The notes under the pieces are model-generated. The model was given only the letters and a program-made list of their open reading frames with translations. It was not told the DNA's origin and searched no databases. DNA of 64,000 nucleotides from positions 3,990,501 through 4,054,500 of the forward strand of contig OZ024869.1 in assembly GCA_964017185.1 (NCBI GenBank). Reading direction: 5' to 3'. The translations under genes were made by a program, and so were the position numbers. This DNA is from Rugalucina vietnamica. Lineage: Eukaryota; Mollusca; Bivalvia; Lucinida; Lucinidae. The stretch's first letter is position 1; each line of letters opens with the position of its first letter. Shown here in pieces: positions 26,049-64,000 of this stretch.

Positions 26049-26223
26049 TTAAGTACCATCAAAGCGTGATGATGTCCGAATAAAAGTGTGGACAGCCTCA
26101 AAAATAGTTTGATTGTCTTCTTCAGTTGTTAAGTTAAGATTTCCAGACATCAAAAGTTCAACTGGTAAAGGATGATATGTCATCAATGTTTGGAATAACT
26201 CTACACGCTGGTCATTATACATA
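26049..26223 (-). pseudogene. LINE C-terminal fragment
   Basis: The minus strand reads LFQTLMTYHPLPVELLMSGN and TIFEAVHTFIRTSSRFDGT, resembling the last residues of a mollusc LINE ORF2, followed by a stop. It abuts hairpin MITE copy 9. Confidence 0.6.
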
Positions 26224-26228
26224 CATTT

Positions 26229-26405
26229 GAGCCTGTGAGTGAGAAAAACAACAATTTCGGTTCCGACCAGGTCTGACACAAACATGCCTGTACAGACACG
26301 TGTAATGAAAACAAAGGCGCTGATCAGCTTTGCAGTTACTGCGAAGCTGATCTGCGCCTTTGTTTTCGCATTTGCAGACTGTTGGTTTTCCCATGCGGCG
26401 GCTCA
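26229..26405. mobile_element. Hairpin MITE family 1, copy 9
   Basis: ATTT flanks on both sides. Shorter than the 235-bp copies because the long arm is reduced. The palindrome is of the CTTTGCAGT/ACTGCGAAG type. Confidence 0.87.
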
Positions 26406-26410
26406 TTTAA

Positions 26411-34830: not shown

Positions 34831-35352
34831 TATTTAATTATAAATCATTAAAATGATGTTTTGGAGTACTGAAAAGCCTGTAAATAATCTTGGGGTCTTG
34901 GGAGAAACTGAATGGTCATTTCAGGGATCTTAGAAGGGCCATTTATTTTCATTGATCTACTAGTTTATTCATGGTACTGAGGAGAAAGGTAATTTCTTTC
35001 AGGGAGTAGAGAGCTGACCCCCACCTACCATGTTAGGTCCACAACTTCAAAATATTCGTTATCTGCTGCTGAAGCAACACCGGAAAAAGTCATCATTTTG
35101 AATTTCCACAAAACTTTTCAAGCGTTTTCAATTCTCAAATTGCACTGGGTGCTTACTTGGTCCCGATATAAAAAGGGTTTGTTTGATTTTTTTGGTAACG
35201 GATTTTGTTAGAACATTATGTGAACACAGCAAATCACCACTAAACAGAGCTGCCGGCATTAACATATATACAGTTCATGATTTTAATCATTTTAATAAAT
35301 CAGGAAACAAGCTGCATTCATTTGTATGACATGAAATTCTACTAATGACGTC
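34660..35352. promoter_or_regulatory. Cluster of three CRE-type TGACGTCA sites upstream of the receptor-like gene
   Basis: Perfect CREB/ATF consensus palindromes at 34660-34667, 34685-34692 and 35345-35352, in the 1.2 kb before the start codon at 35827. The first two belong to a TIR element. That they regulate the gene is inferred from position only. Confidence 0.35.
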
Positions 35353-35826: not shown

Positions 35827-35990
35827 ATGTTGCTGGGATCTAAAATCATCTTGACCTTCAGTGTGTTGGCGATAGTTGGCACAGCAGCATGGGGAGGCCA
35901 GACCTGTTTACCTAGATGTTTTCCTGCTGAGCCAAACACAAAGTCGGACTGTTCGTCGTTTGAATATATCCCGACATGCAGACAATCCAG
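35827..35990 (+). CDS. Receptor-like gene exon 1: signal peptide and Cys 1-4
   Basis: 54 codons plus two bases, donor GTGATT. Starts MLLGSKIILTFSVLAIVGTA: one Lys, then a long hydrophobic core and small residues before WGGQTC, typical of a cleaved signal peptide. An in-frame TGA at 35806-35808 rules out an upstream extension in the same exon. The ATG at 35819 is in another frame and stops after 11 codons. Confidence 0.8.
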
Positions 35991-38900: not shown

Positions 38901-41900
38901 ATTATGTCCCATGCGAACGCATAGTAAATACCTATGGGTATTTTAATTTCAAGTCAATAGTCTGCTTTTAGATAATGAATTTTAACATTTTGTTCTAAAC
39001 TGATTATATGACAGTTGCTGAAACTGTAGACAATGTTGCTAAATAAGAGTTTATTTCCATTCAACACATTTTAGATCGTATGGCGTGCAAACAGCCACGA
39101 TTCTTGGGGCATTTTAGCAGTAATTTCTTGTGAATGTTAAGGTTAAGCCTGACCATTATACCTTTAAAGAGCCTCTTCTTGTTTTGCAAATACAGAAAAC
39201 TTAAATGAACAGGTTTTAATCCAGAAATGATTTATTTACATACAAAAATACTCATGGTGATAACACCCATGCGAACGAAATTTAAATTTACTCACAGATT
39301 GATGTGCACACCGAGTATATTTACACACCGGAGTATATTTACACACGTGTATTTTTTGCGCATGCGAATTGGACTTTAGTCGTTTTTCGGGCATTTACAC
39401 TAAGAAAGTGCATGTGGTTTATCCATGATTCTCAGATTATATATTTAACTAAACCAAGGCGGGTGACATAAATTCTCTGAATTTGCTTGTTTTCTCTATT
39501 TTTGCTCAAATCACAAAAACGAAGGTACTTGTTAAAATTGAATGACTTGGCCCTTACACCTCTTGATTTTATTTGTAGAAAAGATCATGAAGCTTGCTGA
39601 GTTTAAGATGTTATAATTAGGGCTCGTTGATCTGCCCAGTGACGTCATGTTGGCAGGTGTTTTTGCCCTTTACTAGCATGAATACTGAAGCTAGGACTGA
39701 TACTATGGCGTCTTCTAGCCTAGCGGGGCACAAGTAGTTTGTTAATTGCAAATTGTTTTCATTTTAGGTTTCAGCCGTTCATCAAAGAGCCCGAATGTGC
39801 ATGCCTATGGAAGACATTTCTCGGGGCTATAGCACCGACGCAGTATTTTAAAAAGGAAGGAATCGGGTGTCTAACATGGGCCGTGAAAACATGCGGTTTG
39901 TATTAGTTGATGCCATATCTTTTTGAAAATCTGGTTTTCATCGCCAACAAAGGGATTCTTATAAATGAAATTGATTTTGGTTCAGGTATTTTAAAGGCTT
40001 GATTCCATGAAAAAAGCAATTCAAGTGTGTCTTCAGACAGCGAAAGAAGTGTATGCATTTGAAACTATGCTATTTGATGCATTTTACATGTATACGCGTA
40101 TAAACTGGAATGAATACTGGCGTTATATTTTTCAACGTAGCGCCATGATTGATTATCCAATCATGTTTGAATCCCATGTACATCCTGGACACCATGACCT
40201 ATTAGTTTGATATTGTTTTCGTTACTGTCATATGCTACCCGCCGGTCGTATGTTACTGTTTTTTTTTCAGTTCCTGGTAGTAATGAAAATGACAAGAAGG
40301 CAAAGAACAATGAAGAATTTCTGATATCTGAGGTAGGCATTGTAGTGCCAGTCTGCCCTTAAAGACTTTATACCATAGAATTGTACAATGTAAACAATGA
40401 TCTAGCTAGACTGTGTGTGCTCATCTACTCTGGTTTTAGATTTTTCTCCACAAGTTAACATGGCTGTATCTAGAACACCAAGCATTACTGTAATATATCT
40501 TGCATGTACTATGACTCAAATTATTTTCAGCTTATTCGAATCGCCAAAGGCTTGAAGACCAAAGGTGAAGCTCCGGCGAAAGCTCCTATGAACGAACGAA
40601 AGGATATTCCACAATTGTTACAAGAGCTGGATCAAAATGCTCGAACTCTGGACAAAGCTGGTACTTCTGCGAGCAAAATAATAAGCTTAAAAAAAGGGAA
40701 AACTCCAGGAGAGTTTTACGGGGTGCTGCATAAAGGTATAAATATTAGGAAACCGTATGTTTGTGTGTGTGTTATGTCATCTTTAGAAATCATAATTGTT
40801 AATTTATGATATACATAAATGCCATTTTTTTTTTTTTTTTTTTTTTTTCTTATCATCATAGGGTCATATATTACACATATTCATCATATGACGTCGCTGT
40901 TTTCCAGTGGATAACGTCATGTGATTAAAAAGTGTTATGACCACACGTGTATGAACATTTTTGATGTAGCTGTTTTCCAGCACGAGTGTAAGATTCGTTT
41001 TATCATTTGACTTATTATATACGATTTTATCGCCTTAAAGTGGACATATTTCCAATGAAAATTAACATTGTTGTCACGGACGTCGTCAATGACGCTACGT
41101 GTTCCCGCAAAAGTGTTAATACACGTGTAAGTGAATTAGGGCTGTTCCCTCTTAAAATTTCAATTTTAGCAAACTGTATTAATTTTTGGTTACATACGGC
41201 TAAAACACAATCAGGGTGGACATTTCACAAAATACATGTTATACGCCAGCATTTTGCCCTGATGCACTCCTAGAATGATGTTATTGTCATAGCTCAATAG
41301 GAAACTTCTCAAGCTTTCCAGTGATATATAATATGTGTGGGTTATTAGTAGCGGAACAGTTTACTGCCTAGTCAAAAGGCTAAAATTTGGCCATTTTTGA
41401 GTGTTATAAAGTTTCACTTCAAAATTTCTATTATTTTACAAGACTCCGGCTATTATAATTTCATCTTTAGCCAATAAGTTTATGTCAGAAATTCAAAAGG
41501 AATACCTTAACTCTTATCTGAGGTGATTAATACATTGGTACATGCCTTTGCATTAATTCCTAAGAGCTTTTCTTAAAAGTAGCACTTTGTTATACATTTT
41601 GGCTTTTTTAATATCCCCAAATCAGGGGCTTCCAAACTTAATAAATTGCAAAATATATAATCACAAATGCCATATTAAGCATAAGATACTTTTTGAATTT
41701 CGATGGAAAAGCCCTAATTGAATAGAAAGTGATTATGGAATCTGCCAGATGCAATTTTGTAACATCATGTAAAATGTCGTGTCCGTAGCCCCCTATTTTC
41801 AAGCCCCTGTTAAAGTATGTTATCCATGCTTTATATAAACATGATCTTCACTTTCCGTTGCGGGTCCAGGGATTTAACGTTTTATAAGAAAAATTTTGTG

Positions 41901-43213
41901 GCTAGCTAAATGGTTTCATCAGATATCACGGTAACTATGCTGTCCGTAGCCCTGTCGTGTCCGTAGCCCCCCATTTTTGTTGTTTGCTTAAAATGATCAT
42001 TTTAAGCTTATCTCATTTTGTTTGGGTTTTAAACAAACAAGAACACCATTAAAAGTCATAAATGTACCAGTAGATATGAATATTACAATTTAATACTTAT
42101 GACAAAACTGTATTAAAACAGATAGGGCTACGGACACGACGCATTTTCATATTTGTCCATATGTTGAAAATTTTCAAAGATTTTTCAGATTAAATCTGTT
42201 ATCTAACACCAAAAAGTGCCCTAAAAGTAAAAATTATCAATACAAGATAAATTGCATTAGCCAAAATGCATGTTATATTTTCAAATATTTAGGCCCGTAG
42301 GCCATAAAGGCATAGGTATGGTGAAATTTTTGAAAGCCTGAAAACAAAATGAAAATTTCTGCATTTTCGCACCTACAAGATGTCTCTGAAAACAAAAATG
42401 CCATCTAAATATGCCCCACTGAAAATTCATTTTTTGACAAAAGTGAAACCCAAATGTCCACCCTGATTGTGTTTTAGCCGATACTATTCACTCACACAGA
42501 GATTCACTAGTACATAAAGCATATTTGGAGCAAAAGAATTCTTCAAATAGTCACAGCAATTCTTGGTTACAGTTTGTTAAATCTTTGCTAAGTGACTTAG
42601 GATTTTCTCATGTATGGAAAAATCAGAGTACAATAAATGTAGCATCGCTTCTCTTTTCAGTTAAGAATAAATTAAAGGAAATATCTATTTCATTTTGGAA
42701 AAAAAAAAAAACGTTTGTCATCTGAAACATGTGAAAAAGGAATGACAAAATTGCGAACTTACAAATTGATTAAACGAAACTTTGGAATTGAAACCTATCT
42801 TGAGCAGTTGTCTAGTGTCTTTGTTCTTTTCGAATCAGTGCTCATAGACTTAGAATAGAACGCGGTAGGTATTATAGAGAAAAGCCTGAGGAGAGGTTAT
42901 GTAACTCTTGCAATAAAATTGAAAATGAAATACATTTTTTATGTGAATGTCATAAATATGATACACTAAGAATGAAAATGTTTGACAGCATAGATCACGT
43001 TGATTTTGTTCGTGGTATTAGTATTCATAATATTGCTAATGCAGATTGTTGGTTTTCCCATGGGCGGCTCATATGTACTTCAGATGGTGAAGCGTCTCGC
43101 GACACTGACACCAAAAAAGATGCAAGCAGCGAGATTGGTCCTGGCTATCCAAAGGTACATATTGAATTTTAGATACAATGCTTCATCATCATCATCATCA
43201 TCATCATTGATTA

Positions 43214-43270
<57 letters not shown>

Positions 43271-44453
43271 GGTAAGAAGGACCTTATAAGTCGGTGGAGT
43301 GACGTCGACGTTAGAGACATTTAGTGAAATTGCTGCTGAAATGGTCGAAAAATTCCAATTTTTCTTTAATATAAATAATGGCTTGGTGACCTGCAGCTGT
43401 CCTGTTACTTGCTAGTTTTATGTATGAACATTATATCTTACAGGAGAGGTGGTGGTTATGGTATCAGAGGCATGAACAGTTCGAGTTGGGTCTATTTTTC
43501 CTGGTGATCTTCTTTGTGGCTATGTTCATGCTTGCGGCTGTACTGTGCTTGGTATGACTAAAATACTTTAAATACGTGTAACAAGAACATTAGCTTTTTC
43601 GGAAAGCTGGCGGACAGGGACCTCTAATTGCAACGTAGTAAGCGATTGGCCCAAAGTGTGGGCAGATCTACCGCGGTAATTTTATGTATTGATCATAAAT
43701 ATGTGTATCTATCAACATGATCAACCGTCTTTGTCATATGATAGTATAACCTTTATAGTATAACATTTCTTGAACGTTTTGAAGCATATGAACGAGTCTC
43801 GTTTGGAGTAAATTACAATGGGAGTCTATGGGAAAGATAATTATAGGTCTCTGCCACGGTGACCGTTCGATCTAAATAATTGTATGTACAGCATTTAGAC
43901 ACAAGGGCTTACTTTCCCTGTGTTAATGTATGAGTGTACGGAAAATAAATACAATTTATATCATTATTGTCAAATTTATTGAATACCTCAATGGAACATC
44001 ATTTGAGCCGCCTCATGAGAAAACCATCAATTTGCATAGGCGAAAACAAAGACGCAGATCAGCTTCGCGGTAGCCGCGAAGCTGATCAGCGCCATTGTTT
44101 TCGCTACTCGGATAGTACAATTCCGCCTCTACTTAACTCCAAAATTTCAAGCTTCTAGCCTGCTTCTGTAGCTGTACAGGCCTGTTTGTGTCATTGTGAC
44201 ATTGCTGGTTTTCCCACGAGGCGGCTCATTTCTAAAAAAAGGCTGTCTTCCTAAATAAACCCTAATTGATAAGCTTCCCATCCTCGCTTGTTTCAGTGCC
44301 CTTACCTCAAAATTCATTAAAACTAGCACATGCAGTATTTAAACTTGTAAAAATGGAAAATTTTGATATCACAAAATATTGATTGTTGATACATGTTAGA
44401 ACTGCCTCGGTGAGGCGGCTCTAATTAACGAGTACCCACAATCCATGTTTTGG

Positions 44454-44484
<31 letters not shown>

Positions 44485-47400
44485 GAATAGGAATACCCCT
44501 GTATATATATAGACAGTCAGTGGACATAATTATTCGCCACCTTTGGAAAACTCCATGTATTTTCATGTTTGTAAGAAAAAATATTCTGCCTCTTCTGGTC
44601 AACATATATTCACGTTTTGGTGTCATTTAAAAGTTAAATGATTAAGGCAATAAACAAAGGTTAGTTGGTGAAGTTTCAACATTGCATTTTGTATATATAT
44701 GGGAAATTTTGAAAAAAGCCACTTTCCCATTGACGTCAATGGTGACGTTGCCCAAAAAGTGTCCGGAAAAAAAATCGCAAGTTTTTAAAAAATTGTAGCT
44801 TTAAAACGCAGACATGGAATTAAATGGAAAATATCTTCTTTATTGCTTTATTCATTTACCTTTCAAATGACACCAAAAACATAAAAATGTGTTGACCAGG
44901 AGAAGCAGAATATTTTTTCTTGCAAACATGAAAATACATGTAAGTCTATGGAATTTTCCAAAGGTGGCGAATGATTATGTCCAATGACTGTACATTACAT
45001 GGACATGCTATCATGATAACTTTTTTTTTTCTTGTTTTAGCAATTTCGAGCGGGTCGACGTAAGAAGCCGAAAAAAGACACGGACTCGGCGGAAGAGGAT
45101 GAGGATAAGGAAGATAAGAGGCAACCTGGTGACCTTGACCTTGAAATACACAAGAGGTTCAGGAGTTTCGGCCCTGGGGGCCCAAAGTATAACATCCCCA
45201 TCGACGATTCTACAAGACCTGATGGTAAAAAGGCTAAAAAGCCCGCAAATCTTCTGTGAGTATCATAGATGGTACCTTACCGGTTTTGATTAACAGTATT
45301 CTTTTAACTTATGCCAGTCAGGAGCTATCAGTAGAAGAGACACCCTCCTTCGGGCTGCGCCATTGACGTCACGTCGACGGTGTCATCGTATTTACGTCAT
45401 GTGGTCACTTAAGGTGGCGTCATACCTAGCCGATTTTGACACACGATGGCCAAACGAATATGAAATTTTCAATTTCGCGCGATTTTCGTCACGAATTTGG
45501 TAAAAAGCCAATGTTGACCCGAAGCATGTACGAAGCCTACTGATGGACACACGATGGACACACGATTATATCCGATGCAGTCACGAACGATACACGAAGT
45601 GGTAGTTTTGCATACGATGTTGATGCGAATGGTATGCGAAGGCTTGACGATGTCGTGAAGCCATCGTGAAGCCATCGTGATGTGTAAAATGTATTCCCGA
45701 AAGGCATAACGACACTTCCCGATGTTATGTAAAAATCAATTAATGAGACTAAAAAGTGATGTTGAGAAAACATCAGCTTTGTCAGTTTCTTTCTTTACAA
45801 AATAAAATTGGAAATGCCACCGAAACCAGGACGAGTGCGTGGGAAGAAGGTTCCACTCCAATACTCCAGTCCATGACTCCACTCCAAAACCTCCAATCCA
45901 TAAAATACACGGTGTCTATATTGTAGGCGGAAGATTGAACGAGACCCCTTCATTCATGGCAAACATGGTCTCTTTTGAGAAGGTACATTGCATTACATTT
46001 GTATGATTTCGTTGTTGACGTCCACGGTAAAAATTACTACCATGACTGTTTTGTCAGTTACTTTACAACACTGTTCAAATTTCTCGGTGACCGTTTGGTT
46101 GTATTTCGATCTATCTTTCGCATGAAACTGACACAAAACTGTTCTTGAGTTTATAGTAGATGTAGATCCATAAAAGACTCGTTTGTCGAAAACTGCAGTG
46201 GGTACTGCTCTACTAGAAAGAAAACAGAGTGCTGCTTGAAAGACAACAATACAAGAATACAAGAATACAAGATCTTTATTACGAATTTTCGGCCCACATA
46301 GGAGCAACAAAGCCATGGTATAACATAATAATAAACAAACCAAATACCTGTAAGAGATGGTGCTGCTCCTGCAAGATGATTCCAGTTCACAGGCGCTCGA
46401 CGACTGGACTCATTTTTTTTTTTTTTTTTTTTTTTTTCAGTTTCATTTTCACCCGTTTGAAGACCCTTACGATATGTTCATGGAATTATTTTACCTTTAA
46501 AACCTTTTCTATCAATCCTCAATCAACCCTCGTCTATGGGCTACTTTATAGACCACAGGCGCTCGACGACTGGATTCTTTTTTTTTTGCATTTTCACCCT
46601 TTTGGAGACCCTTGCGATATGTTCATGCAATTATTTTACCTTTAAAACCTTTTCTATCAATCCTCAATCAACCCTCGTCTATTGGCTACTATATAGACAA
46701 GGTCGGAAACGCGGTGTCCTAGTTTAATTGGGGTCATGGGATTCCCCGCATCTCAAACTCATACTTCACCCTTTACCGTTATTTCAATGCTGGCTGTCAA
46801 CACATGAATGTCTTTGTAAAAGGTCTAGCCCATTGCCAGCCTTCATTCAAAATAAGCACTACCGCCCGTAAAAACTAACAATTACAGCATTCTACAGAAT
46901 TGGAGGACATCCCGAATGAAATCAGCAATCTAGCCGTGACATAACTACAAATACACTGGTCACACGACGTGTTACGCCAGCGCGTGATATGTGTTACGTT
47001 GGTTTTCATAGGTTGCTTGATTTTATATCCAGTCAAAACACTTTGTGATCTAGTGTCATGGCAACAATGCAATACAATTATCCAGTAGGATTGATTCTTT
47101 CATACGATATTTACAGTGACCTTCCACTGATTTCTAGAAACGAAAGGTCACCATACAAAAACATTCGGGATCCCATCCAAGTAGACAGGTGGTGGTATAA
47201 AATATAAGTTTACGGGCGACTATGCTTATTTTTGACGAAGGCAATGGGTGAGACCTTTTATAAGGTCGCTCATGAGTAGACACTCAGCAGAAATAACGAT
47301 AAAGGGTGAAGTACGAGTTTGAGATGCGGGGAATCCCATGACACCATTAAACTAGGACACCGCGTTTCCGACCTTGTCTATATAGTAGCCCATAGACGAG

Positions 47401-50400
47401 GGTTGATTGAGGATTGATAGAAAAGGTTTTAAAGGTAAAATAATTCCATGAACATATCGTAAGGGTCTTCAAACGAGTGAAAATGAAAATGAAAAAAATG
47501 AAAAAAAAAAATAATAATAATGAGTCCAGTCGTCGAGCGCCTGTGTTCCAGTTGCGTGTAAAGAAGCAGTGCTGCAGTCTTCTTCTTCCTGTTTGTCTTG
47601 TTTTCGAAATACACCATGATTTTTATCAGAATAGAATCAACAGTACCGAATTTAAGTTTTTCTGAGAAAAAGGCCGAGTGTGTGTGAATGCTGTTTTTGT
47701 ATGTCAACGTTACCTTGGGATATATCAATTGGAAACGCAGAAAAATGCAGATTTGGTTAATATCGTGTTTCCATCGGGATGCCATCGTGTTCTAATTTTT
47801 GTTAGATACGATGCTTATACGATGGCGTTCAATCGGTTGCGAGGGCTATACGATGTCGTGTTGCCTTCGTAACACAATCGGGCAGCATCGCGTCTCCATC
47901 GTATTGCCTTCGTGCAGCAAAACTTAGCCGATGGTGCCGATGACCACACGACAGAAGTACGATGTAGTCCCCGATGTCATATGATGGCCTCACGATGGCT
48001 TTGCGAAGGCCACGATGCACTCGCGAATTCAACACGAAATTGAACCATCGTGTGTCATTCCTGTATTTTTTTGCATGTCAAAGAGTTTGGTGCCGCTCGC
48101 GATGGTGATGCCGATGGCTTAAAAAGTCTCCCGATGGACATACGATGGGTAACAATGCACTCACGAATGGCCCGATGTCTTCACGATCCCCGCCGAAATT
48201 AAAACTTTTCATAATCGTGTGTCCATCGCGTGTTAAAATCGGCTAGTATGACGCCTGCACTATAAAGGATTGAAATTCAGATTTTAGCTTTCACTGGATG
48301 ATGAAAAACATTAAGCTGTTTTAATGTCAATGAAGCCCGAAGACTCAAGGGCTTCTCGGAGACATTAAAACAGCTGATGTTTTTCAGCATCCAGTGAAAG
48401 CTAAAATCTGAATTTCAATACTTATATTCACATTTTATATTATCAATCAAATATTTACATTTTATATTATCAATCAAGTATCAGATTTTCAACTGCACAC
48501 GTCATCGCTCATTTTCATGTTATTTAAAATTATAATCTGCACTATGGATGATGTACGGGGAGACTTTTAGGGCCGCCACACGACACAACGCCAGCTGCAG
48601 TAATAGCAAATGAAATATAATTGTTAGATCCTTTGGAAGCAGTAAAAACATTCAAAGAGAAAAGGTGGGCCATATTTGTACAATTTCGGGTAATGAACCT
48701 TCATCAATGACCCTTTACAAAACTGGCAGCGAAAGCCAGACATTCATGATAGCTGCAATTTCCAAAGTTTACACCAGTATAGTCTAAATCAAAGACGAAT
48801 TCAAAGAGAAAAGTCGGGTCATATTGTGGCCATATTGTACAATTTCGGGTAATGAACCATCATCAGTGACCCTTTACAAAACTGGCAGCGAAAGAAAATC
48901 CGACTTAACGTAATTTTGGAACAGCCAAAACGCCAAATTTTTGCGCTTAACGTCATGGCGATACGCGACCGACGTCACGCCAACAAGAGTAAACAAACAA
49001 CGTCAGTGGTTGGTTTTGACGTCGCCCCGCCCATAGTCGTGGCCTCTAGATCACGTGACTTAACGTTTTTCATTGGAAAATGAAGGACATCAAGAAAGAT
49101 ACTTTCATTTCGGGCGATTGCAATAAAAATGTAAATATACGGTAATAGTTGCAAGACGGGAAACACAGAAGACTTGATCTCATAGGTATAGGATACCTAA
49201 AATTTTAGTAAACTCCTGTTAGATCAAGAATACACACACTGCTTTGAAGGAATACATAGAGGATATTCAAGTTTTTGGAGTGAATATGAGTTTTATTTCA
49301 TTGAGTGAAGTGAAAAAAATTTATATTTCATTACGTCACGTCATTACGTCGCTTTTGTGTGTGAACGTTCATTGCGTCAACAATAGCATAGATTATAAAA
49401 TTTAGTTATGTATAAATTAGAAATGAAACGGTGGAATCGTAATTTGCATATTCCCAAATCTTATATTTTCACATGTGAAAATATAACTTTTTTTTATATT
49501 TTCACATGTGAAAATATAAATTTTTCAAATATTGGTTATATTTAATACATATTTCTCTATATTTCATCACTTGCCATATAATAAAGATAACATATGCACT
49601 CTCATGTTCAGAACGATTTTTCATTTATTTATCATATTACGTTGCTGTTTTCCAGTGGATAACATCGTATAATAAAAAAAGACTTTTAAAGTGTTATGAC
49701 CACACGTGTATTAACACTTGGTGAAATACGTAACGTCATTGACGACGTCCGTAACAACAATGTAAATTTTCATCGAAAATATGTCCACTTTGAAAGCGAT
49801 ATAATCTTTTTTATAGGCATTTTATAGACATTGGTGGTAATTTCACTCGAGTAAGATTCTCTATATGTAAAAGAAAAGGGGCATGTGATTGTCATCCTTT
49901 GGCATGAGAGTAATGAAAGAAAAATAAATCATTGATCGCTCTGTAGTAACTTAGGTGGGATACAGATAACTATGGCTCTGTATCAGTGGTTATTATTTTA
50001 CAGCAAACTTTTGAGCAAGTTTGTACACGTAGGCCATCGTAGCCAGAAGGGCGTGTTGGAAGAGTTCCATGATAAGAGAAGAATGTCCAGTATTCTTGAC
50101 TACCAGTCCCGACCTAGACTGGCTACCCCGTTAAAGCAGAACGAGGTAATGAGCCAAGACGTGAGAAAACCGGGCTCGGATTTTCCGACCCGGTCTGACA
50201 CAAACACCGACCAGTACAGATCTCGTCTCTGAAATAGGTTAGAAGCTTAAGATTTTGGTGTTAAGAAGCAGAGGAGTTGTATCATCATAAAAGCGAAAAC
50301 AAAGGCGCTGATCAGCTGTGCATTTACTGCACAGCTGATCTGCGCCTTTGGTTTCGCATAAGCAAAATCCGGTTTCCTCATGATGCGGCTCTAAGCATTT

Positions 50401-56400: not shown

Positions 56401-59400
56401 CTTTATATTCAATAAGGGTTTTTCCATCAAACTTCAAAAAAAGTATCTTAGGCTTAGTATGGCCTTTGTGATTTTATATTTTGCAGTTTATTAAGTGTGG
56501 AAGCCCCTGCTTTGGTGATATAAAAAAGCCAAAATTTATAACAAAGGCCTATTTTAAAGAAAAGCTCTTGGGAATTTATGCAAAGGCATATACAAATGTT
56601 TTAATCACCTCAGATAAGAGTTAAAATATTCTTTTTGAATTTCTGACATAAGCTTATTGGCTTAAGATGAAATTATAATAGCTGGTGTCTTGTAAAATAA
56701 TAGAAAGTTTGAAGTGAAACTTTATAACACTCAAAAATGGCCCAATTTTAGCCTTTTGACTAGGCAGTAAACCGTTCCGATACTAATTATATATATTATA
56801 TATCACTGGAAAGCTTGCGAAGTTGACAATAACATCATTCTAGGAGTGCACCAGTGCAAAATACTGGCATATAACATGTATTTTGTGAAATGTACACCCT
56901 GATTGTGATTAAGCCGAGTATTTCTCTTTATGTAGCCGAAACCGCGGTAGGTCACTGCTCTTAAAGGATCTCAGTTTTATTTCTTTTGTTTATTTTCACG
57001 AGAGCAATGGAACGTCGCATTCGTATCGATCTCGCCGACGCATACGAAACTTCATAATACATGTAGCATGCATTAAGATTCCACGTCGCATCAATAATCA
57101 CGAGTAACAGTTGGGTCCGAATAGAAACGTAAATTCTACGGTGAAAAATCGGCTAACATCAATCACGGGTGGAATGCTATCATATAATTTTTTCGGTTAA
57201 AATCCCACTTTTATTCATTTTTGATAAAATTTTATCAAATATTGATTTCGCTGTCAAGAAAGAGTTAATCGGTAAAACTTGTTTTTCAGACAGCGCCTGG
57301 ACTAACAGATATAATTTTTGCAAACAGGATTTATTTTTTCTACTTCATATCCATGGAAAATGAATTCATCAGTATGAATCGCATTAGGTTTGTTATGCAA
57401 GTATTTTGATTAATATTTCAGCGGAAGATGTCAGGAGTTGGGAGTCAAACACCAATATATGAGCAAGTGAACTATCCAAGCGAATCGGAATACGAGGATA
57501 TTTTATATGAGCGAGCCCCAGACCCTCCAGTATTCAGTATGAATGATACATATGAACAGCCCAGGCCCGTGCCCATATATCAGAATAACCCTACACTATG
57601 GGACCAATCCCGTTACGGTGGAAAGTCTTCAGAACTGAGAGATTATGAAAATGTTGATAGGTCCAATCTTAGCCCTGTGCCTCAGGTGATCGAAACTTAT
57701 GAAGAACTGAGCCGAAAAAACTCTGAGGTAGAGACGATTTCCTATAATGATACTTCTCAAACGCCAAGAACCTACCCCCAGCCCAGTCCAGTCAGTGAAG
57801 AAAGCCGGACAAGCCCGGAAGCAAGTCCGCCTTTTAGTATCCAAGTTGAATTACCATCATATGTACAAAAGAGTAGAAGAGTAGGTACATAGTAAAAGGG
57901 TATTTATTTTCTTAGTCGTTTGGTAAGCCAGAATTGCTTTATAGTATAATAATAATAGACAAAATAATGTTCTAGCTGGCCACCAATGTTTTGACACTAT
58001 TCGTACATGTAACAAAGTTATTTGCGTCATGGAATACCCGGTGTGGGGGTGGTACTCACATGTAAAATGGGCATGTATGTGCCCCGCTATGTTAAAAAGA
58101 AGGGGTTTACAGATCTGATCAAGCTTAAAAAGTGGGTGCTTTCAGAGCTGATAGCTCTAAAAATTGTGTCTTTAGAGCTGATCGAACTGGGAAAAATGGG
58201 TGCATTCAGAAAAAGTGGGTGCTTTTTTATGCGACAGTCTGCATGCTTAGTTTTTAACCCAATCATGGTTGATAACTATGCTGCCTTCTTTAATTGCACG
58301 CCGGTGGGTCGGGCGTCAGACTCTATGATGGCACCGACTTAAAGCTATTCATTTTAGTTGGTTGGGGCCGGAGCTTCTTGTCTGTTGCTTGGCCCACCGG
58401 GGTCCAACTGGTGTTTTTCTTTTGCTCCGGAGTTAGTAGGTTATTCGGCGCCCAAGGATCTCCATCGCCGGGCAGCTTACTCAATCTGTGAGTCCTTGTT
58501 TTTGATTCATCAGGATGTTAATCATGATTTATTTGTTTGTTCTTGATGATTCATTGACTAGTTAGAGATTCACCACGAGGACCGAAGAACTAACTAAATG
58601 TTATAAACCACTGCAGAAGCTGAGGGTGAGGTTAGGTACCTGTAAAACCGGTTTAAGCCCGCCAGTAACTTTGTGTTACTGATCGTTCCAAGTCGATACT
58701 TCTGTGGTGGTTCTTTTTGTTTTATGTCTTGGTGTTTAAAATTTTTTGTACTGTTGGCGCCTTATGTATGTTTTCATATTTTTAGTTAAGTTAAGGTAAC
58801 TGAGTGGCCACCTATTGGGAAAATAGCTGCTCATTCGGCTTACGATATGTTTCATGGTATAAGTACCTGATTGTTAGTTTTGGTTTTTCCCACCTCGGTT
58901 TTTGGAGTGGGAATCTTTTTCTGATTGCGCCTTTTCCTGATCTTTGCCTACTTGTACCTTTTTATAGCTGATATATCTGAAAAAGTATGTGCTTCCAGAC
59001 CCGGCCTTCCAGAGCTGAAAAACATTCGGTAATGTCGCCGCTAAGTACAGTAGACTGTGTCTATGTTGGGATTTTAAATTTAATTGCAAATATTCCTGGT
59101 CCCTCTGTTCTTATTAGCTATTAGTTTTGATATTTTAAGAGTTCAAATGACCCTTTCTTGAAAGCTGGAATACATGGCTAGATTTTTTTTTAGAATTGAC
59201 GCAGTGGAGTGGACTATATATGTACATGTACATTTTAGATTGAAAGAAAATTTACGTCTTTGTAGGCATTTCTATCTTTATGCCTATCGGTTATTCTAAC
59301 CACTGCTTTGCACCTTTCAGAAAATTGCACAGAAGAGACATAGTATCTCACTGAAAGTCATTTTAGGTGGTGGGGTAATTTATGACTGTTTAGCGACTTT

Positions 59401-62400
59401 TGTGGGTTTTTTTTTCCTCTAATATTTGCATTTACATGGTTAGTTTGAGTTTATCGCCAACATATCTGCACAAAAGTACGAGACGTGGGAGACGGAGCGA
59501 CTTGTAACATATGACGTCACTTGCCGGTCAATATATTATTCACACCGATGGCCGTGAATAGTTTCTTTATTACCTAATTACATCAAATACACATATATAT
59601 GGAAACTAATTTGTTCTTTTCTTCTGTTTTAGTATCTAGGATCTACTTTCTCACATAGTATACTTCAGGCGTTTGGCTTTGCAGTGAAATCAGCCGATGT
59701 ATTCACTGTATGAATAACGGCTGACGACGAACTGATGTGCCAAGGATATAGTTGGCTTCATAATGAAAGGGGACATTGCGAGGAAAATGCTCAGCTTAAA
59801 TCATAATCACCTATCTCCATGCATTCAAAAATGGCCCATTCTTTCCATATGAAGGGGCCATTTTGAAAATAAGTGTAATTTTGCCCATGGCCCCAAAGTT
59901 ATCCCTGATATGCCTCACTTCAGGCTTTCACTGATATTGATATTTTCTCTAACTACTAGTAGTGTTTTGATACATCAGCCGATATTTTCACTTTGAATAG
60001 ATTTTGGATTACTTCTGACGTTTTCATTCACTTGACAACATCAAACGCCTATAAATCCGTTAATTGTGAACGAAAACATAAAGTGTGTGTATTCGTTTTC
60101 TTAGTTAGCACTTTAGACACAATTTAGTACATTTTTTTTTTTTTGTGTATTCATTTTTTAGCTCATCTGAGCCGAAGGCTCACAAGGTGAGCTTATAGTA
60201 TGGTAGTCGAGCCGTCGTCCGTGCGTCCGTCCGTTCACACTTTCAAATACAAATATCTCTTCAACTCGTGAGCCAATTGCAATCAAATTTTTTCAGAAGC
60301 ATCATTGGGGCGGGGGAAAGGTTGCATTAGGTTTTGGGCCAGATCGGATAAGAACTCTTGTTTCGATGGCAACAGATAGCTCCTATAGACTTACAATGGG
60401 GGAAAAACAAACAATCTTCTTCCCCGAAACCACAAGGCCCAGAGCTTTCATATTTTTTGTGTAGTAATGTATAGGGGTCTGCCAACCGTGCCCCTGGGGT
60501 CCATACAAGCCACGCTCCGGGGGGGCGTCATGGGAAAACATAAGAAAATCTTCTCAGAAACCACAAGACCCAGAGCTTTCATATTTTGTATGTAGCAATG
60601 TATAGTGGTCCTCTTTATGAATCCTGCCAACTATGCCCCTGGGGTCAAAAATGGCCCCACCCCGGCCCATAGACTTACAATGGGAAACACATAAAAATCT
60701 TCTTCGAAACCACAAGGCTCAGAGTTTTTCTATTTTGTGTGTAACTACGTATAAAGGTCCTCTTTATAAATCCTGCCAGCCGTGCCCCTGGGGTCCATAC
60801 AGGCGACGCCCCGGGGTCGTCATGGGAAAAACAAAAAAAATATTCTTCTCCGAAACTACAAGACCCTTTCATCTTTTGTGTGTAGCAATGTATAGTGATC
60901 GTTTTTTAAAAATCCTGCCAACCATGCCCCCGGGACCAAAACTGGACCCACCCCGGGGGTCATTATCTCTCATACACTTACTATGGAACAAAACATACAA
61001 CACTCTTCTCCGAAACCATAAGGCTCAGAGCTTTCCTTTTTTCTGCGTAGCAATGTATTGTGGTCATCTTTAAAAATCCTGCCAACTATGCCCCTGGGGT
61101 CAATAATGGCCCAAATGAAAGCTCCAATAGCTTCCAATGGGAAAAAAATCTTCTCCGAAACACAAGACCCAGAGCTTTCCTATTTTGTGTGTAGCAATGT
61201 AATATAAAGGTTCTCTAAATAAATTCCGCCAACCATATGCCCTTGGGGCCCATACAAGCAACGCCCCGGGGGCATCATGGGAAAAACATAAAAAAAATCT
61301 TCAAAACCACAAGGCCCAGAGCTTTCATGTTTTGTGTGTAGCAATGTTTAGTGGTCCTCTTTATACATCTGCTAACCGTGTCCCTAGGGTCAAAAATGAC
61401 CCCACCCCAGGGTTCATTAGCTCCCATTTACTTACAATGGGAAAAATATTTTGTATGTAATAATGTATAATGGTCCTCTTTATAAATCCTGCCAACCGTG
61501 CCCCTGGTGTCCATACAGGCCACGCCCCAGGGGCATCATTATCTGTCATAGGCTTATAATGGAAATGTGTCACATGAAAAAAATCTGCAACTGGACTTAC
61601 TATTTATGATTCTGAAAAAAATGGACCTCAGGGGTTCATCTGCCTTCAACCCTTGGTAATATTTGTGTATTACCATAATATTCAAGCATCTCAGAAACCG
61701 CATGGCCAATCAAAGCCAAATTTTATATGAAGCATTTATAGGAAGGGGAAATCAATGTGTACATGAAAATCAAGGTCACGTGGCCAAGATGGCCACCATG
61801 CCGATATATGGTAAAACCCAAGATACTTTTCTTTTGTCCAGTTACTGTACTTGTTGACTCTCAGGTGAGCGATCGTTGCCCTTAAGCTACTTGTTTTTAT
61901 TTTTATTTTTCGCATTTTCACCGCCTTCTTCAATGGGAAGTATTTGATACTTTTGCTTTATAGGTTATCCCATCGACAAAAGCCAAGAAGAAAGCTATGC
62001 AAGAAGGTGCCGTCGACAGCTCAATGCCCAGCCAAACCGAGAAACAAAATGCTGTGCTACCAGCAATTGTTTGGTTAATTGACGCGCAACGTTAGTAAAG
62101 TCGTAAATTTCTACGTCGTTCTCGTGAGATTTAGATTTGACGTCCTTTGCCATGGTATTGTGAAAACCAAATCACTCTGTTTTCCTGTTACCTTTACATA
62201 GGTGATGTCATCTTGGTATAGTTAAACCTATTGACTAGAAGTGGCATCAAATAAGAAAGACACCATAATAGTAAGAAACGTTACCTGCAAAAGGTCCCAT
62301 TACTTGCCCAATATGATGTTTTGTGCAGACAGTAAGCAGTTATTTTATGCCTGGGAGATGCTTGGTTGGTGAATAGTCAAAACTATACCCCTTGATGCCG

Positions 62401-63613
62401 TTGACAGCTCAATGAATTATTTCCTGAGGCCGTTAGGCCGAGGCCGATTGTGCTTGGAGCTGTCAGCGGCACAGAGGGCATAATTTTGCCTATTCTGCCA
62501 AACAGCCATGAAATAATTGCTTTATTACGCAAGTAAACAAGAAACCATTAGGCATTAGCGATTTTGACTTTCCATTATATAGTATATAGTTTAACATGTT
62601 GTTTAAGAGGGCCTCGTGGAAGATTGGCTATGCCAAACGAGCCACCCTCTATAAATAAAGACTTCACTTCACTTCATTGACGCGCGACGTTATTTATGCA
62701 CGAGATACTCTACGTCATTCTAGAGACGTTGACGTCATCGGCCATGGCATAGTAAAAACTACCCCACTCCGTTTTTGCATTATGTTTGCATGGGTGACGT
62801 CACTAGCATGGTATAGTCATTACTATTGACCGTCTGATAACGTCATATTTGTTGCGTTACATGCATTTCACTCATCGCGTGCCAATTAAGTACTAATGTG
62901 TGCAGAAAGTCAAAACTATTTAATATCTTTTTATATAAGGGGTTGGGTAATAATCAGAACTATTACAAACTCTTTATATACATGATATTAGGGGTTGGGA
63001 AATAATTATAGCTAATTACCGGCAAGTGACGTCATATAAGAAGCGTTACGTGCAGGCCACCACGTCACGTGCCAGTTAACCAAATGTTTTTGTGCAGATA
63101 TTCAAAATTATTTCAATACTCTCTATGTAGGGCATTGGTATCAATTCTTTCTATTCATTAAATTTTTGTTTTACAGGTTCCACTACCGACAAAAGCCAAA
63201 GGGAAGAAGAAAGGCCGAAGTTTCGGGGCGGAGTTCCTGGCCCTACCAATAGCAAAGAAGCCATAATTGGACTTTCTAAAAATGCTCAGCGTCTTAATTC
63301 CGTCAGAGATGAGATTCCTGATGCCAACACAGATGAGCACTCTAATGATATCATTGCAGAATCTTCCAATCGCATGAAAGATGTATCTCCTCCTAATGAC
63401 TTTACGAATTTAACTCATGATATAAAATATGATTCTCATCATGACGTTTTGCAGGAGCCTCATTATGACGTCATTGATGATTCTCGTAATGATGTAATGG
63501 GTGAGAGTAGTAATGACGTCATAGATGAACCTAGTGATGAACACAGTGAAGATGAAGCACCGTCGTCGGAGGTTCCTGCCTGGCTCCAAGGTTATAAAAC
63601 TTCTAGGACGTGA
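35827..63613 (+). CDS. Type I membrane protein with ITAM-like, tyrosine-rich tail (11 exons, 705 aa)
   Basis: Family not recognised. CDS: join(35827..35990, 39768..39895, 40271..40332, 40531..40735, 43084..43154, 43444..43551, 45041..45255, 50004..50145, 57422..57880, 61964..62090, 63177..63613). Intron phases are 2,1,0,1,0,0,2,0,0,1, and all junctions keep one open frame. Residues 1-24 look like a signal peptide. Residues 27-97 hold eight cysteines (27, 31, 42, 51, 65, 67, 89, 97). Residues 98-224 are a charged stalk. Residues 225-246 are a transmembrane helix, followed by FRAGRRKKPKK as stop-transfer. In the tail, Y378 EQV and Y389 EDI are seven residues apart (ITAM-like, with Val in the first half). 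Y418 QN and Y440 EN fit the Grb2-type pYxN motif; Y458 EEL and Y657 DVI are further SH2-type sites. Likely role (inference): a cell-surface receptor signalling through tyrosine kinases. No ligand is suggested. Confidence 0.75.
37198..37822. mobile_element. CG-palindrome word element (R2), relative of 6236-6889
   Basis: Dense TCGCGAC, TCGTACGA and GCGCGAC words in both orientations. The right part is the reverse complement of the left part of R1, including CTCACTGGCATACGAATT. Inserted in the tandem array. Confidence 0.7.
37935..38614. mobile_element. TIR element G1 (AGTCCAATTCGCATGCGC), 3-bp TSD TAT
   Basis: Starts AGTCCAATTCGCATGCGC and ends with a near-exact inverse. Flanked by TAT on both sides. 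The first about 176 bp are duplicated (second copy from 38111). Confidence 0.8.
38703..39375. mobile_element. TIR element G2, same family, 3-bp TSD TTA
   Basis: Same termini as G1, flanked by TTA on both sides. The body contains AATACACACGTGTAAATTTA and an inverted TTTAGCAACATTGT segment shared with G1. Confidence 0.8.
39768..39895 (+). CDS. Receptor-like gene exon 2: Cys 5-8
   Basis: 128 nt: one base, 42 codons, one base. Reads FQPFIKEPECACLWKTFLGA and IAPTQYFKKEGIGCLTWAVK then TC. Acceptor CATTTTAG, donor GTTTGT. It joins exon 1 as Arg (AG plus G). Confidence 0.8.
40271..40332 (+). CDS. Receptor-like gene exon 3: start of charged stalk
   Basis: 62 nt after a strong TTTTTTTTCAG acceptor, donor GTAGGC. 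Two bases complete Val, then PGSNENDKKAKNNEEFLISE. Hydrophilic, without cysteines. Confidence 0.78.
40531..40735 (+). CDS. Receptor-like gene exon 4: stalk
   Basis: 68 codons plus one base, acceptor TTATTTTCAG, donor GTATAA. Contains IPQLLQELDQNARTLDKAG, a likely helix, followed by a Lys-rich segment and GEFYGVLHK. Confidence 0.78.
40826..40849. repeat. Poly-T tract in intron 4
   Basis: About 23 consecutive T residues. Downstream, the block 40880-41130 (CGCTGTTTTCCAGTGGATAA, GTGTTATGACCACACGTGTA) recurs in inverted arrangement at 49630-49810 in intron 7. Confidence 0.7.
41197..42480. mobile_element. TIR element E1 (CGGCTAAAACACAATCAGGG), 3-bp TSD ATA
   Basis: Ends CGGCTAAAACACAATCAGGG / inverse, flanked by ATA. 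It contains several copies of GGGCTACGGACACGAC in both orientations. An inverted second copy is E2 at 55513-56916. Confidence 0.87.
42498..43035 (+). pseudogene. LINE C-terminal fragment in intron 4
   Basis: Frames with shifts at an A-run read SNSWLQFVKSLLSDLGFSHV, RISAHRLRIERGRYYREKPE and RLCNSCNKIENEIHFLCECH. The latter is the Cys/His motif at the C-terminus of mollusc LINE ORF2. Ends about 50 bp before exon 5. Confidence 0.82.
43041..43071. mobile_element. Hairpin MITE family 1, terminal fragment at exon 5 acceptor
   Basis: GCAGATTGTTGGTTTTCCCA then TGGGCGGCTCA, identical in layout to the right end of other copies. The palindrome and left end are missing. It ends 12 bp before the 3' splice site of exon 5 and supplies its pyrimidine-rich tract. 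Confidence 0.75.
43084..43154 (+). CDS. Receptor-like gene exon 5: linker, next to MITE and LINE fragments
   Basis: 71 nt reading DGEASRDTDTKKDASSEIGP then GYPK. It is required to restore frame between exons 4 and 6. Its acceptor (GTACTTCAG) lies 12 bp after a hairpin-MITE end (43041-43071), which itself follows a LINE fragment. The donor GTACAT is followed about 30 bp later by an ATC/ATT microsatellite. The exon is low in complexity and could be a late acquisition. Confidence 0.72.
43183..43270. repeat. ATC then ATT microsatellite
   Basis: (ATC)n followed by about 20 ATT triplets, at the start of intron 5. Confidence 0.9.
43444..43551 (+). CDS. Receptor-like gene exon 6: transmembrane helix
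   Basis: Exactly 36 codons, phase 0 on both sides: ERWWLWYQRHEQFE, then the hydrophobic run LGLFFLVIFFVAMFMLAAVL plus CL. Acceptor TCTTACAG, donor GTATGA. Confidence 0.85.
44005..44228. mobile_element. Hairpin MITE family 1, copy 10
   Basis: GAGCCGCC...GGCGGCTC with ATTT on both flanks. Palindrome CTTCGCGGTAGCCGCGAAG (central base changed). Located in intron 6. Confidence 0.9.
44349..44512. repeat. Dispersed ACATAG/ATTGTG repeat copy with poly-A tract
   Basis: Contains TGCCTCGGTGAGGCGGCTCT between inverted arms and a run of about 28 A (44457-44484), then GAATACCCC. Same family as 8510-8605. Confidence 0.6.
44513..44991. mobile_element. TIR element with ACAGTCANTGGACATAAT ends
   Basis: Left ACAGTCAGTGGACATAATTA then TTCGCCACCTTTGG is inverted at the right as CCAAAGGTGGCGAATGATTA ending TGACTGT. 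The complementarity extends inward over more than 100 bp, making about half the element a foldback. Intron 6. Confidence 0.82.
45041..45255 (+). CDS. Receptor-like gene exon 7: basic then acidic juxtamembrane tail
   Basis: 71 codons plus two bases, acceptor CTTGTTTTAG, donor GTGAGT. Reads QFRAGRRKKPKKDTDS followed by EEDEDKEDK. The Arg/Lys cluster right after the membrane helix sets type I orientation by the positive-inside rule. Confidence 0.82.
45416..48255. mobile_element. 2.8-kb TIR element with CACGATGG word array, host of a nested element
   Basis: Ends GGCGTCATACCTAGCCGATT and the near inverse AATCGGCTAGTATGACGCC. Both arms are built of degenerate CACGATGG, ACACGAATG and TCGTGAAG words. 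The centre is occupied by the inserted element 46388-47545. Intron 7. Confidence 0.78.
46388..47545. mobile_element. Nested TIR element with 8-bp TSD TTCCAGTT
   Basis: Ends CACAGGCGCTCGACGACTGG and its inverse, flanked by TTCCAGTT at 46380-46387 and 47546-47553. The 8-bp TSD is of the hAT type. The left arm has an extra tandem copy of its terminal about 160 bp (second at about 46553). Shared arm sequence includes GGTTGATTGAGGATTGATAG and GGAAACGCGGTGTCCTAGTT. No transposase. Confidence 0.87.
48269..48419. repeat. Long near-perfect hairpin (about 65-bp arms)
   Basis: ATTGAAATTCAGATTTTAGC at the left is answered by its inverse at the right. The arms continue through TTTCACTGGAT and AGCTGTTTTAATGTC. 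A second small stem (GAAGCCC with GGGCTTC) closes the tip. Intron 7. Confidence 0.88.
48652..48895. repeat. Tandem duplication, about 148-bp spacing
   Basis: TTCAAAGAGAAAAG, TTGTACAATTTCGGGTAATG and GACCCTTTACAAAACTGGCA occur twice in the same order. Confidence 0.8.
49462..49518. repeat. Twin TTTTCACATGTGAAAA palindromes
   Basis: Two copies of a palindrome of about 22-24 bp centred on CACATGTG, separated by about 10 T/C residues. Intron 7. Confidence 0.85.
50004..50145 (+). CDS. Receptor-like gene exon 8
   Basis: 142 nt: one base, then 47 codons (KLLSKFVHVGHRSQKGVLEE and FHDKRRMSSILDYQSRPRLA then TPLKQNE). Acceptor TTATTTTACAG, donor GTAATG. A hairpin MITE begins 5 bp after the donor (50151). 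Confidence 0.8.
50151..50391. mobile_element. Hairpin MITE family 1, copy 11, at exon 8 donor
   Basis: Begins GAGCC 5 bp after the exon 8 splice donor and ends GCGGCTC. The palindrome is of the CTGTGCA/TGCACAG type. The flanks TAAT/TAAG suggest a decayed 4-bp duplication overlapping the donor. Confidence 0.87.
51700..52470. repeat. Fragment of family A tandem units
   Basis: CCAAGTTTCAAGTCTCAGTCTGC, TGACCTTGACATTTGTTAAT and GATGGGCTTAGGTCCC-like words match the units at 26480-27560. Confidence 0.7.
52593..52622. repeat. ATTC microsatellite
   Basis: (ATTC)n followed by (AGTC)n, inside the foldback element. Confidence 0.85.
52890..53670. repeat. Direct duplication, about 470-bp spacing
   Basis: GCTATAAAAAC, GAGCCGGGCCA, GTGTGGTTTCTACGCAGCTT, CCGGGTTCTCAACTTC and ACACATGCACGCACGCGCAC all occur twice in the same order (first 52910-53130, second 53385-53640). 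Confidence 0.8.
55300..55372. repeat. A-rich AAATA/ATA low-complexity tract
   Basis: Runs of AAAT, AATA and ATA with few other bases. Confidence 0.8.
55513..56916. mobile_element. TIR element E2, inverted copy of E1, 3-bp TSD AGT
   Basis: Same CGGCTAAAACACAATCAGGG end at the left and a diverged inverse at the right. AGT on both flanks. GGGCTACGGACACGAC words in both orientations as in E1. Read on the opposite strand it is colinear with 41197-42480. Confidence 0.87.
57422..57880 (+). CDS. Receptor-like gene exon 9: tyrosine-motif exon (ITAM-like)
   Basis: 153 codons, phase 0 on both sides, acceptor TAATATTTCAG, donor GTAGGT. Holds PIYEQVNYPSESEYEDILYE, then TYEQP, IYQNN, DYENV, TYEEL and the proline-rich PRPVPIYQ and TYPQPSPVSE. 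If the intron is retained the frame adds V-G-T and stops at 57890-57892, which would give a shorter tail that keeps all these motifs. Confidence 0.83.
57893..60159. other. Intron 9, unassigned
   Basis: No additional exon found. Short internal repetition of GAGCTGAT and AAAAGTGGGTGC words occurs at 58075-58230. One TGACGTCA at 59512-59519 sits in a block whose inverse (ACCGGCAAGTGACGTCATAT) occurs in intron 10 at 63018. Confidence 0.5.
60160..61893. repeat. Family A short copy with about 143-bp tandem units
   Basis: The ends AGCTCATCTGAGC...GGTGAGCTTATAGTATGGTA and CTCAGGTGAGCGATCGTTGC mirror the ends of 26411-33331. The interior has about eight units marked by CTGCCAACCGTGCCCCTGGG, GAAACCACAAGGCCCAGAGC and GTGTAGCAATGTATAGTGGT between 60395 and 61530. 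Confidence 0.8.
61964..62090 (+). CDS. Receptor-like gene exon 10, partly resembling exon 11
   Basis: 42 codons plus one base, acceptor TGCTTTATAG, donor GTTAGT. Begins VIPSTKAKKKAMQE. The first 25-30 nt resemble the start of exon 11 (GACAAAAGCCAA shared), and its end (TTGACGCGCAACGTTA) recurs in the next intron at about 62678. It may be skipped (see findings). Confidence 0.65.
62075..62240. repeat. Diverged duplicate spanning end of exon 10, copy 1
   Basis: Matches 62678-62850 in order (TTGACGCGC.ACGTTA, TCTACGTC.TTCT, TTGACGTC, GCCATGG.AT, GGTGA.GTCA.C). It includes the last bases of exon 10. Confidence 0.65.
62600..62677 (+). repeat. LINE 3' tail with ACTTC repeats
   Basis: AGGGCCTCGTGGAAGATTGG, ACCCTCTATAAATAAAGAC and (ACTTC)n form a typical non-LTR 3' end. 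No coding part is attached. Confidence 0.6.
62678..62850. repeat. Diverged duplicate, copy 2 (intron 10)
   Basis: Second copy of the block at 62075-62240. It carries two TGACGTCA octamers (62730-62737, 62795-62802). Confidence 0.65.
63177..63613 (+). CDS. Receptor-like gene exon 11: acidic repeat C-terminus
   Basis: After a strong TGTTTTACAG acceptor: two bases, 144 codons, then TGA. Contains four degenerate DV repeats (HHDVLQEP, HYDVIDDS, RNDVMGES, SNDVIDEP), an acidic stretch, and the end EVPAWLQGYKTSRT. YDVI is another possible SH2 site. Confidence 0.78.
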
Positions 63614-63874: not shown

Positions 63875-64000
63875 GTCGACTCTTTGGCTCAGTGGTTAGA
63901 GCATTGGATTTCTACCCCGGCGGTCCGGGTTCGAATCCCATCTGGGACGTGGGATTTTTTGCAAGCTATGCATCATCTCTTAGTTACGAATTTTCATATT
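63875..64000 (+). mobile_element. tRNA-derived SINE, cut by window edge
   Basis: GGCTCAGTGGTTAGAGC (A-box, intact D-stem), CATTGGATTTCTACCCCGG (anticodon region resembling Arg-TCT but with a broken stem) and CCGGGTTCGAATCCC (B-box), followed by GGGACGTGGGATTTTTT and the same body as the copy at 25364. Confidence 0.8.

Follow-up and report, generated by a model that had tools for sequence, protein, structure and literature searches.

A candidate multi-exon gene for a receptor-like, one-pass membrane protein with a possible tyrosine-rich tail in the bivalve Rugalucina vietnamica

Does a series of exons spread over 28 kb of clam DNA encode one receptor with a tyrosine-rich signalling tail, or do its two ends belong to different products? 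The question is raised by a window of 64,000 nucleotides (G000:C1:3990501-4054500), the whole stretch of DNA analysed here, from a 1.09-Gb assembly of 47 contigs of Rugalucina vietnamica. A first-pass annotation made from the sequence alone had described eleven exons as a possible new receptor with an ITAM-like tail. The reading preferred here, which is held at somewhat less than even confidence, is that a single-copy gene of about eleven coding exons specifies a one-pass membrane protein of type I whose tyrosine-rich tail docks SH2 domains.

All eleven exons (Table 1) were found at their proposed places and in one open frame. The proposed length of 705 residues holds only with the exon 10 donor at 62090, and the donor at 62006 gives 677. 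Each of the ten junctions reads GT-AG and keeps the phase. The phase agreement had been claimed before, but phase matching was a building rule and no independent test; because the exons were picked so as to agree, the agreement is little evidence. The exon 10 donors scored 1.6 bits (62006) and -0.4 bits (62090), and the forced eleven-exon model scored 78.5 bits with short exon 10 versus 79.9 with the long form, whose 28 additional codons are equalled in score by 2.6% of open noncoding windows. Exon 10 or a similar piece is required, because exon 9 ends in phase 0 and the long frame of exon 11 begins in phase 1. The DNA of exon 10 resembles, by eye, the start of exon 11, so either exon may have arisen by partial copying of its neighbour. 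Forms without exon 6 or without exon 9 both stay open, as each of these exons is phase 0-0, and splicing could therefore drop the helix or the tyrosine-rich block in frame.

Table 1. Exons and alternative ends of the candidate gene (positions within the window)
Feature	Position	Strand	Basis	Content
Exon 1	35827..35990	+	exon model; unchosen by gene search	start ATG; signal peptide, aa 1 to about 21-24; four ectodomain Cys; 19-residue hydropathy 1.89
Exon 2	39768..39895	+	exon model and gene search	further four Cys (C65, C67, C89, C97)
Exon 3	40271..40332	+	exon model and gene search	stalk, hydrophilic
Exon 4	40531..40735	+	gene search favours shorter in-phase end, 40660	stalk, charged
Exon 5	43084..43154	+	exon model and gene search	stalk
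Exon 6	43444..43551	+	exon model; unchosen by gene search	putative membrane helix, aa about 224-246; hydropathy 3.05; 108 nt, phase 0-0
Exon 7	45041..45255	+	exon model and gene search	RRKKPKK basic stop-transfer; charged juxtamembrane tail; Y296
Exon 8	50004..50145	+		tail with Y351; frame open past donor to stop at 50232
Possible alternative 3' end	50146..50232	+		exon 8 read-through: 28 coding-like codons, then stop
Exon 9	57422..57880	+		459 nt, phase 0-0; 12 Tyr in 153 aa, including Y378, Y389, Y418, Y440, Y458; in-frame ATG 57428
Exon 10, short form	61964..62006	+		donor GTGCCG
Exon 10, long form	61964..62090	+		donor GTTAGT; 28 aa more than short form
Exon 11	63177..63613	+		acidic C-terminal tail; YDVI; stop codon; ATTAAA at 63709

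For coding potential, a score was trained on 8,547 codons from 36 SH2 and kinase loci of this genome, with noncoding DNA of the window, namely 1-12000 and 20801-35000, as a background that contains some thiolase-like exons. Two loci had been excluded from the training set beforehand: L031, whose scores and frame equal those of L030, and L035. Long training matches were lengthened on either side by as much as 150 codons in the open frame, and some noncoding codons may be included. Splice sites were scored with generic animal consensus matrices, not trained on this genome. A dynamic-programming gene search then chose its chain freely at three intron penalties. Its settings were fixed after the model had been seen but before the control runs, the splice-site threshold going from 0 to -3 and the smallest exon to 30; an earlier search at threshold zero found neither exons 1, 2, 4, 5 and 6 nor the start of exon 9, and chose short exon 10.

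At the middle penalty, the best plus-strand chain in 35001-64000 scored 88.6 bits, versus a mean of 11.7 (SD 2.6, maximum 15.8) in 20 dinucleotide shuffles of that region. Its reverse strand scored 9.3 bits, and the two strands of window 1-29000 scored 20.3 and 25.2. The lower penalty gave 110.4 bits versus a shuffle maximum of 28.7, with up to 43.8 in window 1-29000, and the higher penalty gave 74.2 versus 10.7. Both ends were exact at the middle penalty in eight of the eleven exons (2, 3, 5, 7, 8, 9, long 10 and 11), and exon 4 was given its shorter end; seven exons were recovered in this way at the higher penalty and six at the lower, which also added extra exons. In the first training set, which was without 11 minus-strand loci that were reoriented for later training, the exons scored 94.2 bits in frame versus 12.7 and 16.7 in the other frames. 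Synonymous codon bias was rejected as a coding test for having no power in this genome: the true frame scored 8.4 bits, the +1 frame 31.0 and the remaining frame 3.0. The open stretches of exon 9 (152 codons) and exon 11 (145 codons) have noncoding expectations of 9e-5 and 1.4e-4 per site, respectively. The exons of the region are real and belong to one or more single-copy animal genes.

The middle-penalty chain omitted exons 1 and 6, both hydrophobic, and included a spurious first exon at 37947. Leaving exon 6 out of the forced model with long exon 10 raised the score from 79.9 to 84.9 bits. Since the codon score was derived from kinase and SH2 domains, it would be expected to overlook signal peptides and membrane helices. 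A separate control for exon 6 searched 50 half-overlapping noncoding pieces of 1.9 kb for phase-0/phase-0 candidates, with thresholds set just below the splice scores and hydropathy of exon 6 itself; candidates with similar splice scores and a hydropathy of 3.0 were found in 0 of the 50 pieces, and also in none when the hydropathy was lowered to 2.2.

Averaged over 19 residues, hydropathy exceeds 1.2 in only two segments of the joined protein, residues 1-26 and 219-252. Between them lie eight cysteines (27, 31, 42, 51, 65, 67, 89 and 97), followed by a Cys-free charged stalk. The modelled ectodomain between signal peptide and helix comprises about 190-200 residues and contains no N-glycosylation sequon. 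The helix ends at C245, which is followed by the basic stop-transfer, and the tail runs from residue 247 (431 residues in the 677-residue model) and holds 17 tyrosines, 12 of them within the 153 residues of exon 9. The described order of signal peptide, ectodomain, helix, stop-transfer and tail is thus present in the joined model, with the exon 8-9 join as its unconfirmed link.

Pfam searches returned chance-level matches only. The best was DUF4834 over the helix (E 0.073; 14.4 bits versus a cut-off of 27.8), and the others below cut-off were SLC52 (E 0.3, helix) and MG280 (E 0.25-0.28, stalk). Residues 1-187 alone matched only MG280 (E 0.28) and residues 23-101 matched nothing; Ig, C-type lectin, LRR and SRCR domains were not found in the ectodomain by Pfam, nor were kinase or SH2 domains in the protein. 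A PDB sequence search gave no match at E<=10, and a search with exon 9 only found no relatives in viral and bacterial collections. Against its own 1.09-Gb genome, all ten matches among 15 candidates scored were the protein's own exons 1-9 and 11; no second gene copy was found, the short exon 10 being too short to match. Two sites considered as ectodomain relatives, C16:28316644 (E 0.84) and C16:28621060 (E 0.97), were rejected for internal stops and lack of an exon-like frame. The first-pass annotation had likewise been unable to place the ectodomain in any family. Here 'no family' means none in Pfam or PDB, and mollusc orthologues may well exist. These features support a predicted receptor-like one-pass membrane protein of an unfamiliar kind.

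Whether a receptor carries this tail depends on the join of exon 8 to exon 9 across an intron of 7.3 kb. The join is inferred, and membership of the tail in the membrane part is unproven. Two products, or alternative 3' ends of one gene, are the main alternative, to which we give a smaller share of belief. One would be a 393-residue membrane protein from exons 1-8, ending at stop 50232 and having three tyrosines in its tail; the other would be a soluble, tyrosine-rich SH2-docking adaptor that starts at M368 in exon 9 and has 310 residues, or 338 if exon 10 is long. Chains cut at intron 8 scored 40.0 and 59.0 bits, 99.0 together versus 88.6 joined, the left one ending in exon 8 read through to its stop and the right one beginning at ATG 57428. 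The scoring scheme makes no charge for gene start or end and hence none for a second gene, and a usual penalty would probably cancel about the whole gain of 10 bits, a point against two products. The exon 8 read-through of 28 codons is coding-like, a score equalled by 0.9% of the 10,097 open and overlapping windows of 28 codons in noncoding DNA, but it was the highest-scoring among ten read-throughs examined. Of the ten acceptors, that of exon 9 is the weakest, its score being reached by 20.9% of noncoding AGs, and ATG 57428 has A at -3 with four open codons ahead of exon 9, both of which would suit an adaptor starting there. Against this, TTTCAG, which occurs at 0.86 per kb in noncoding DNA, ends 6 nt upstream of that ATG as a spliced exon predicts, although an intron in a 5'UTR would look the same. 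A sigma-70 promoter scan upstream of exon 9 was discarded as meaningless for an animal gene. With two products, the ITAM-like pair would not always be on a receptor. Overall, one joined gene is rated somewhat under even. About a third goes to two products or alternative ends, and the remainder to the more specific readings discussed below.

Intron 8 also contains two inverted blocks of 43-base tandem units (50774-50969 and 54357-54520), 3.4 kb apart. In addition, introns 4 and 8 each hold one of two inverted copies of an element some 1.2 kb long (41197-42433 and 55698-56916), the matched arms being 87-94% alike. By eye the ends of this element look like inverted repeats, and it is therefore likely to be a DNA transposon.

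Renumbering agreed with the described positions of Y378, Y389, Y418, Y440 and YEEL, and also with that of YDVI, which shifts with the length of exon 10. The strict ITAM pattern, YxxL/I-x6-8-YxxL/I, is absent from the 431-residue tail (677-residue model). The ITAM-like description is weak: a relaxed pattern with Val allowed and the correct spacing has one match, Y378/Y389, and shuffled sequences match it too, at 3.7% for the tail and 4.9% for exon 9. Its first half-site, YEQV, has Val at +3, and Thr rather than Asp or Glu at -3. Y389 (SEYEDI) equally fits the ITIM consensus [SIVL]xYxx[ILV], as the sole such tyrosine in the tail, which has no second ITIM and no ITSM. YxN sites occur at Y418 and Y440, and at least two such sites were seen in 20% of tail shuffles and in 12% of exon 9 shuffles. 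Tyrosines followed by Asp or Glu make up 8 of the 17 in the tail (shuffle P about 0.005). Y458 (YEEL) is the only YxxL within exon 9, and the protein has no NPxY motif. The tail looks more like a general SH2-docking tail than a dedicated ITAM.

If one joined gene is indeed present, the tail would probably be disordered, and ligand binding or clustering may lead a Src-family kinase to phosphorylate several of the acidic-flanked tyrosines. The phosphotyrosines would then dock SH2 proteins according to the preferences of their domains, with Grb2 most likely at Y440 (YENV) and Y418 (YQNN) and others perhaps at Y389 (YEDI), Y458 (YEEL) and the YxxP sites Y409 and Y483. Such a protein would be a receptor-cum-scaffold rather than a canonical ITAM receptor.

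Candidate partners are encoded in the same genome. An SH2 exon at C3:47174873 matches Grb2, and further exons are presumably of SHP-2, PLC-gamma, FER, Csk and Src type. The kinase exon at C5:22785674 matched ZAP-70 with 81.9 bits and SYK with about 80 (78-82 for the two together), versus at most 65.5 for JAK-type chains; a double-domain EGFR chain was higher by summed score, but reached 42.4 bits per domain. The N-SH2 exon at C5:22770450 has SYK as its best PDB match (64.8 bits), and a second SH2 exon at C5:22773036 lies 2.4 kb from it, between the N-SH2 and kinase exons. We infer that the SH2 and kinase exons in C5:22.770-22.789 Mb probably form one tandem-SH2 gene of Syk/ZAP-70 type. By eye there is no ankyrin repeat in the stretch between the C5 exons, and thus the gene looks like Syk and not Shark. 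Two SH2 exons with a kinase at C14:26.1 Mb were rejected as a Syk candidate, since we take them to be FER-like. A separate locus, L056 (C8:54.273-54.277 Mb), has three tandem SH2 exons, which we assume to be Csk-like, in 2.8 kb, a possible exon duplication.

Two narrower readings give Y389 a specific partner, and both are improbable. In the one, which we consider unlikely, the Syk-type kinase would bind doubly phosphorylated Y378/Y389 through its tandem SH2 domains. The half-sites do fall within the 6-8 spacing, and the genome's N-SH2 and kinase exons, with a second SH2 exon between them, have SYK/ZAP-70 as best single-domain PDB matches. The excerpted text of PMC5978004 further argues that invertebrates with Syk retained ITAM receptors, and oyster lectins are described in the available part of PMC13027682 as associating with Syk by way of a hemITAM or nonclassical ITAM, so that departure from the classical motif does not by itself speak against Syk. 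Against it stand the absence of the strict motif, the recurrence of the relaxed one in shuffles, the residues at +3 and -3 of the first half-site and the unproven attachment of the tail. In addition, as excerpted, PMC2820527 reports a schistosome Syk without the SH2 sequence responsible for ITAM binding; therefore the presence of Syk does not imply use of ITAMs. The other reading, in which Y389 would act as an ITIM that recruits an SHP-2-type phosphatase in an inhibitory receptor, is the least probable of those weighed here. It draws on the fit of Y389 to the ITIM consensus and on an SH2 pair at C14:4.22 Mb, presumably SHP-2-like, but a single site among 17 tyrosines is weak, and it has no companion ITIM or ITSM. 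The broader proposal, that the gene encodes an invertebrate receptor coupled to Syk whose ectodomain falls in no known family and goes beyond the oyster lectin and Ig types, is likewise improbable, only slightly less so than the inhibitory one; if true, it would be a new input to the Syk pathway, which PMC5978004, in the portion available, infers to be ancient.

Elsewhere in the window, exons resembling peroxisomal 3-ketoacyl-CoA thiolase lie on the minus strand at 4945-12774. A spliced piece (9023-9065 plus 6094-6201) matched PDB 2iik at E 1.3e-8 and Pfam Thiolase_N only at E 0.045, and a piece near 12673-12774 is presumably also thiolase-like. One of these exons has similar copies at 6094-6201 and 4945-5063, perhaps alternative exons. 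Open frames resembling non-LTR reverse transcriptase were seen by eye at 14402-15199 (minus strand), 15617-17156 (plus) and 20138-20719 (minus). A common interspersed repeat that translates to AKTKTQISFAVTAKLISAFVF and similar sequences was found in the window (4691-5050 and 26049-26402) and in kinase-gene introns (L064 and L077). A stretch at 63890-63950 looks tRNA-like by eye, perhaps a tRNA-derived SINE; ARAGORN found no tRNA in the window, this stretch included.

Among known systems, the lymphocyte transmembrane adaptor proteins LAT, PAG, LAX and SIT share with the predicted protein a one-pass form, the lack of a kinase domain, a hydrophilic tail with many tyrosines and YxN sites and a Cys (here C245) at the inner membrane face; the likeness in the tail is valid only if exons 9-11 are joined to the membrane part. 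In contrast, the extracellular part of such adaptors is very short, whereas about 190-200 residues with a Cys module are modelled here, and they carry a juxtamembrane CxxC palmitoylation pair where this protein has the single C245; no sequence relative was found. Canonical ITAM receptors share two tyrosine half-sites seven residues apart with a hydrophobic residue at +3, and Syk-type kinase exons are present in this genome. However, Val in the first half-site fails the strict consensus here, and the many further tyrosines are more docking-scaffold-like. Draper, CED-1 and MEGF10 are likewise one-pass proteins, with tail tyrosines that couple Src-type and Syk-related kinases, as in the Src42A-Draper-Shark system of flies (PMC4503800, in excerpt). 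Their ectodomain is EGF-like/EMI and their tail carries NPxY, whereas no EGF or EMI match at E<=10 in Pfam, no NPxY and no established ITAM were found here.

Among the papers listed, titles and opening lines of abstracts held no description of this protein, which has no name to search by. According to the accessible part of PMC10253181, invertebrates have one Syk-like gene together with Shark, which bears ankyrin repeats. The corresponding part of PMC5978004 places Syk/ZAP-70 homologues only in invertebrates that have CARD-CC and Bcl10, with molluscs among the Bcl10 holders, and infers ancient, conserved ITAM-type receptors from the co-occurrence of the three. The excerpt of PMC12842671 mentions Syk once, as presumed. 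In oyster haemocytes, the C-type lectins CgCLec-TM1 and CgCLec-HTM are reported to associate with Syk via a hemITAM or nonclassical ITAM (PMC13027682, in excerpt), and the oyster Ig receptor CgIgIT2 is reported to carry a classic ITAM (PMC11999971, in excerpt). An immune role is possible by analogy, as Syk-type kinase exons are present in this genome and oyster lectins are reported to use Syk. Syk-associated lectins and an ITAM Ig receptor have thus been published in bivalves, and this gene would not be the first. If exon 9 is not part of the membrane protein, the locus would hold a membrane protein and an adaptor side by side, both orphans and the first of an ordinary kind; if it is, the protein would be an added input with an unfamiliar ectodomain and a multi-tyrosine docking tail. 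Compared by description only, and as far as the excerpts of PMC13027682 and PMC11999971 go, CgCLec-TM1, CgCLec-HTM and CgIgIT2 are likewise one-pass membrane proteins with a tyrosine motif in the tail. Their ectodomains are of known kinds (lectin, or five Ig domains), whereas the protein predicted here has no Pfam domain (a C-type lectin domain like theirs gave no match at E<=10), no strict ITAM and many tail tyrosines.
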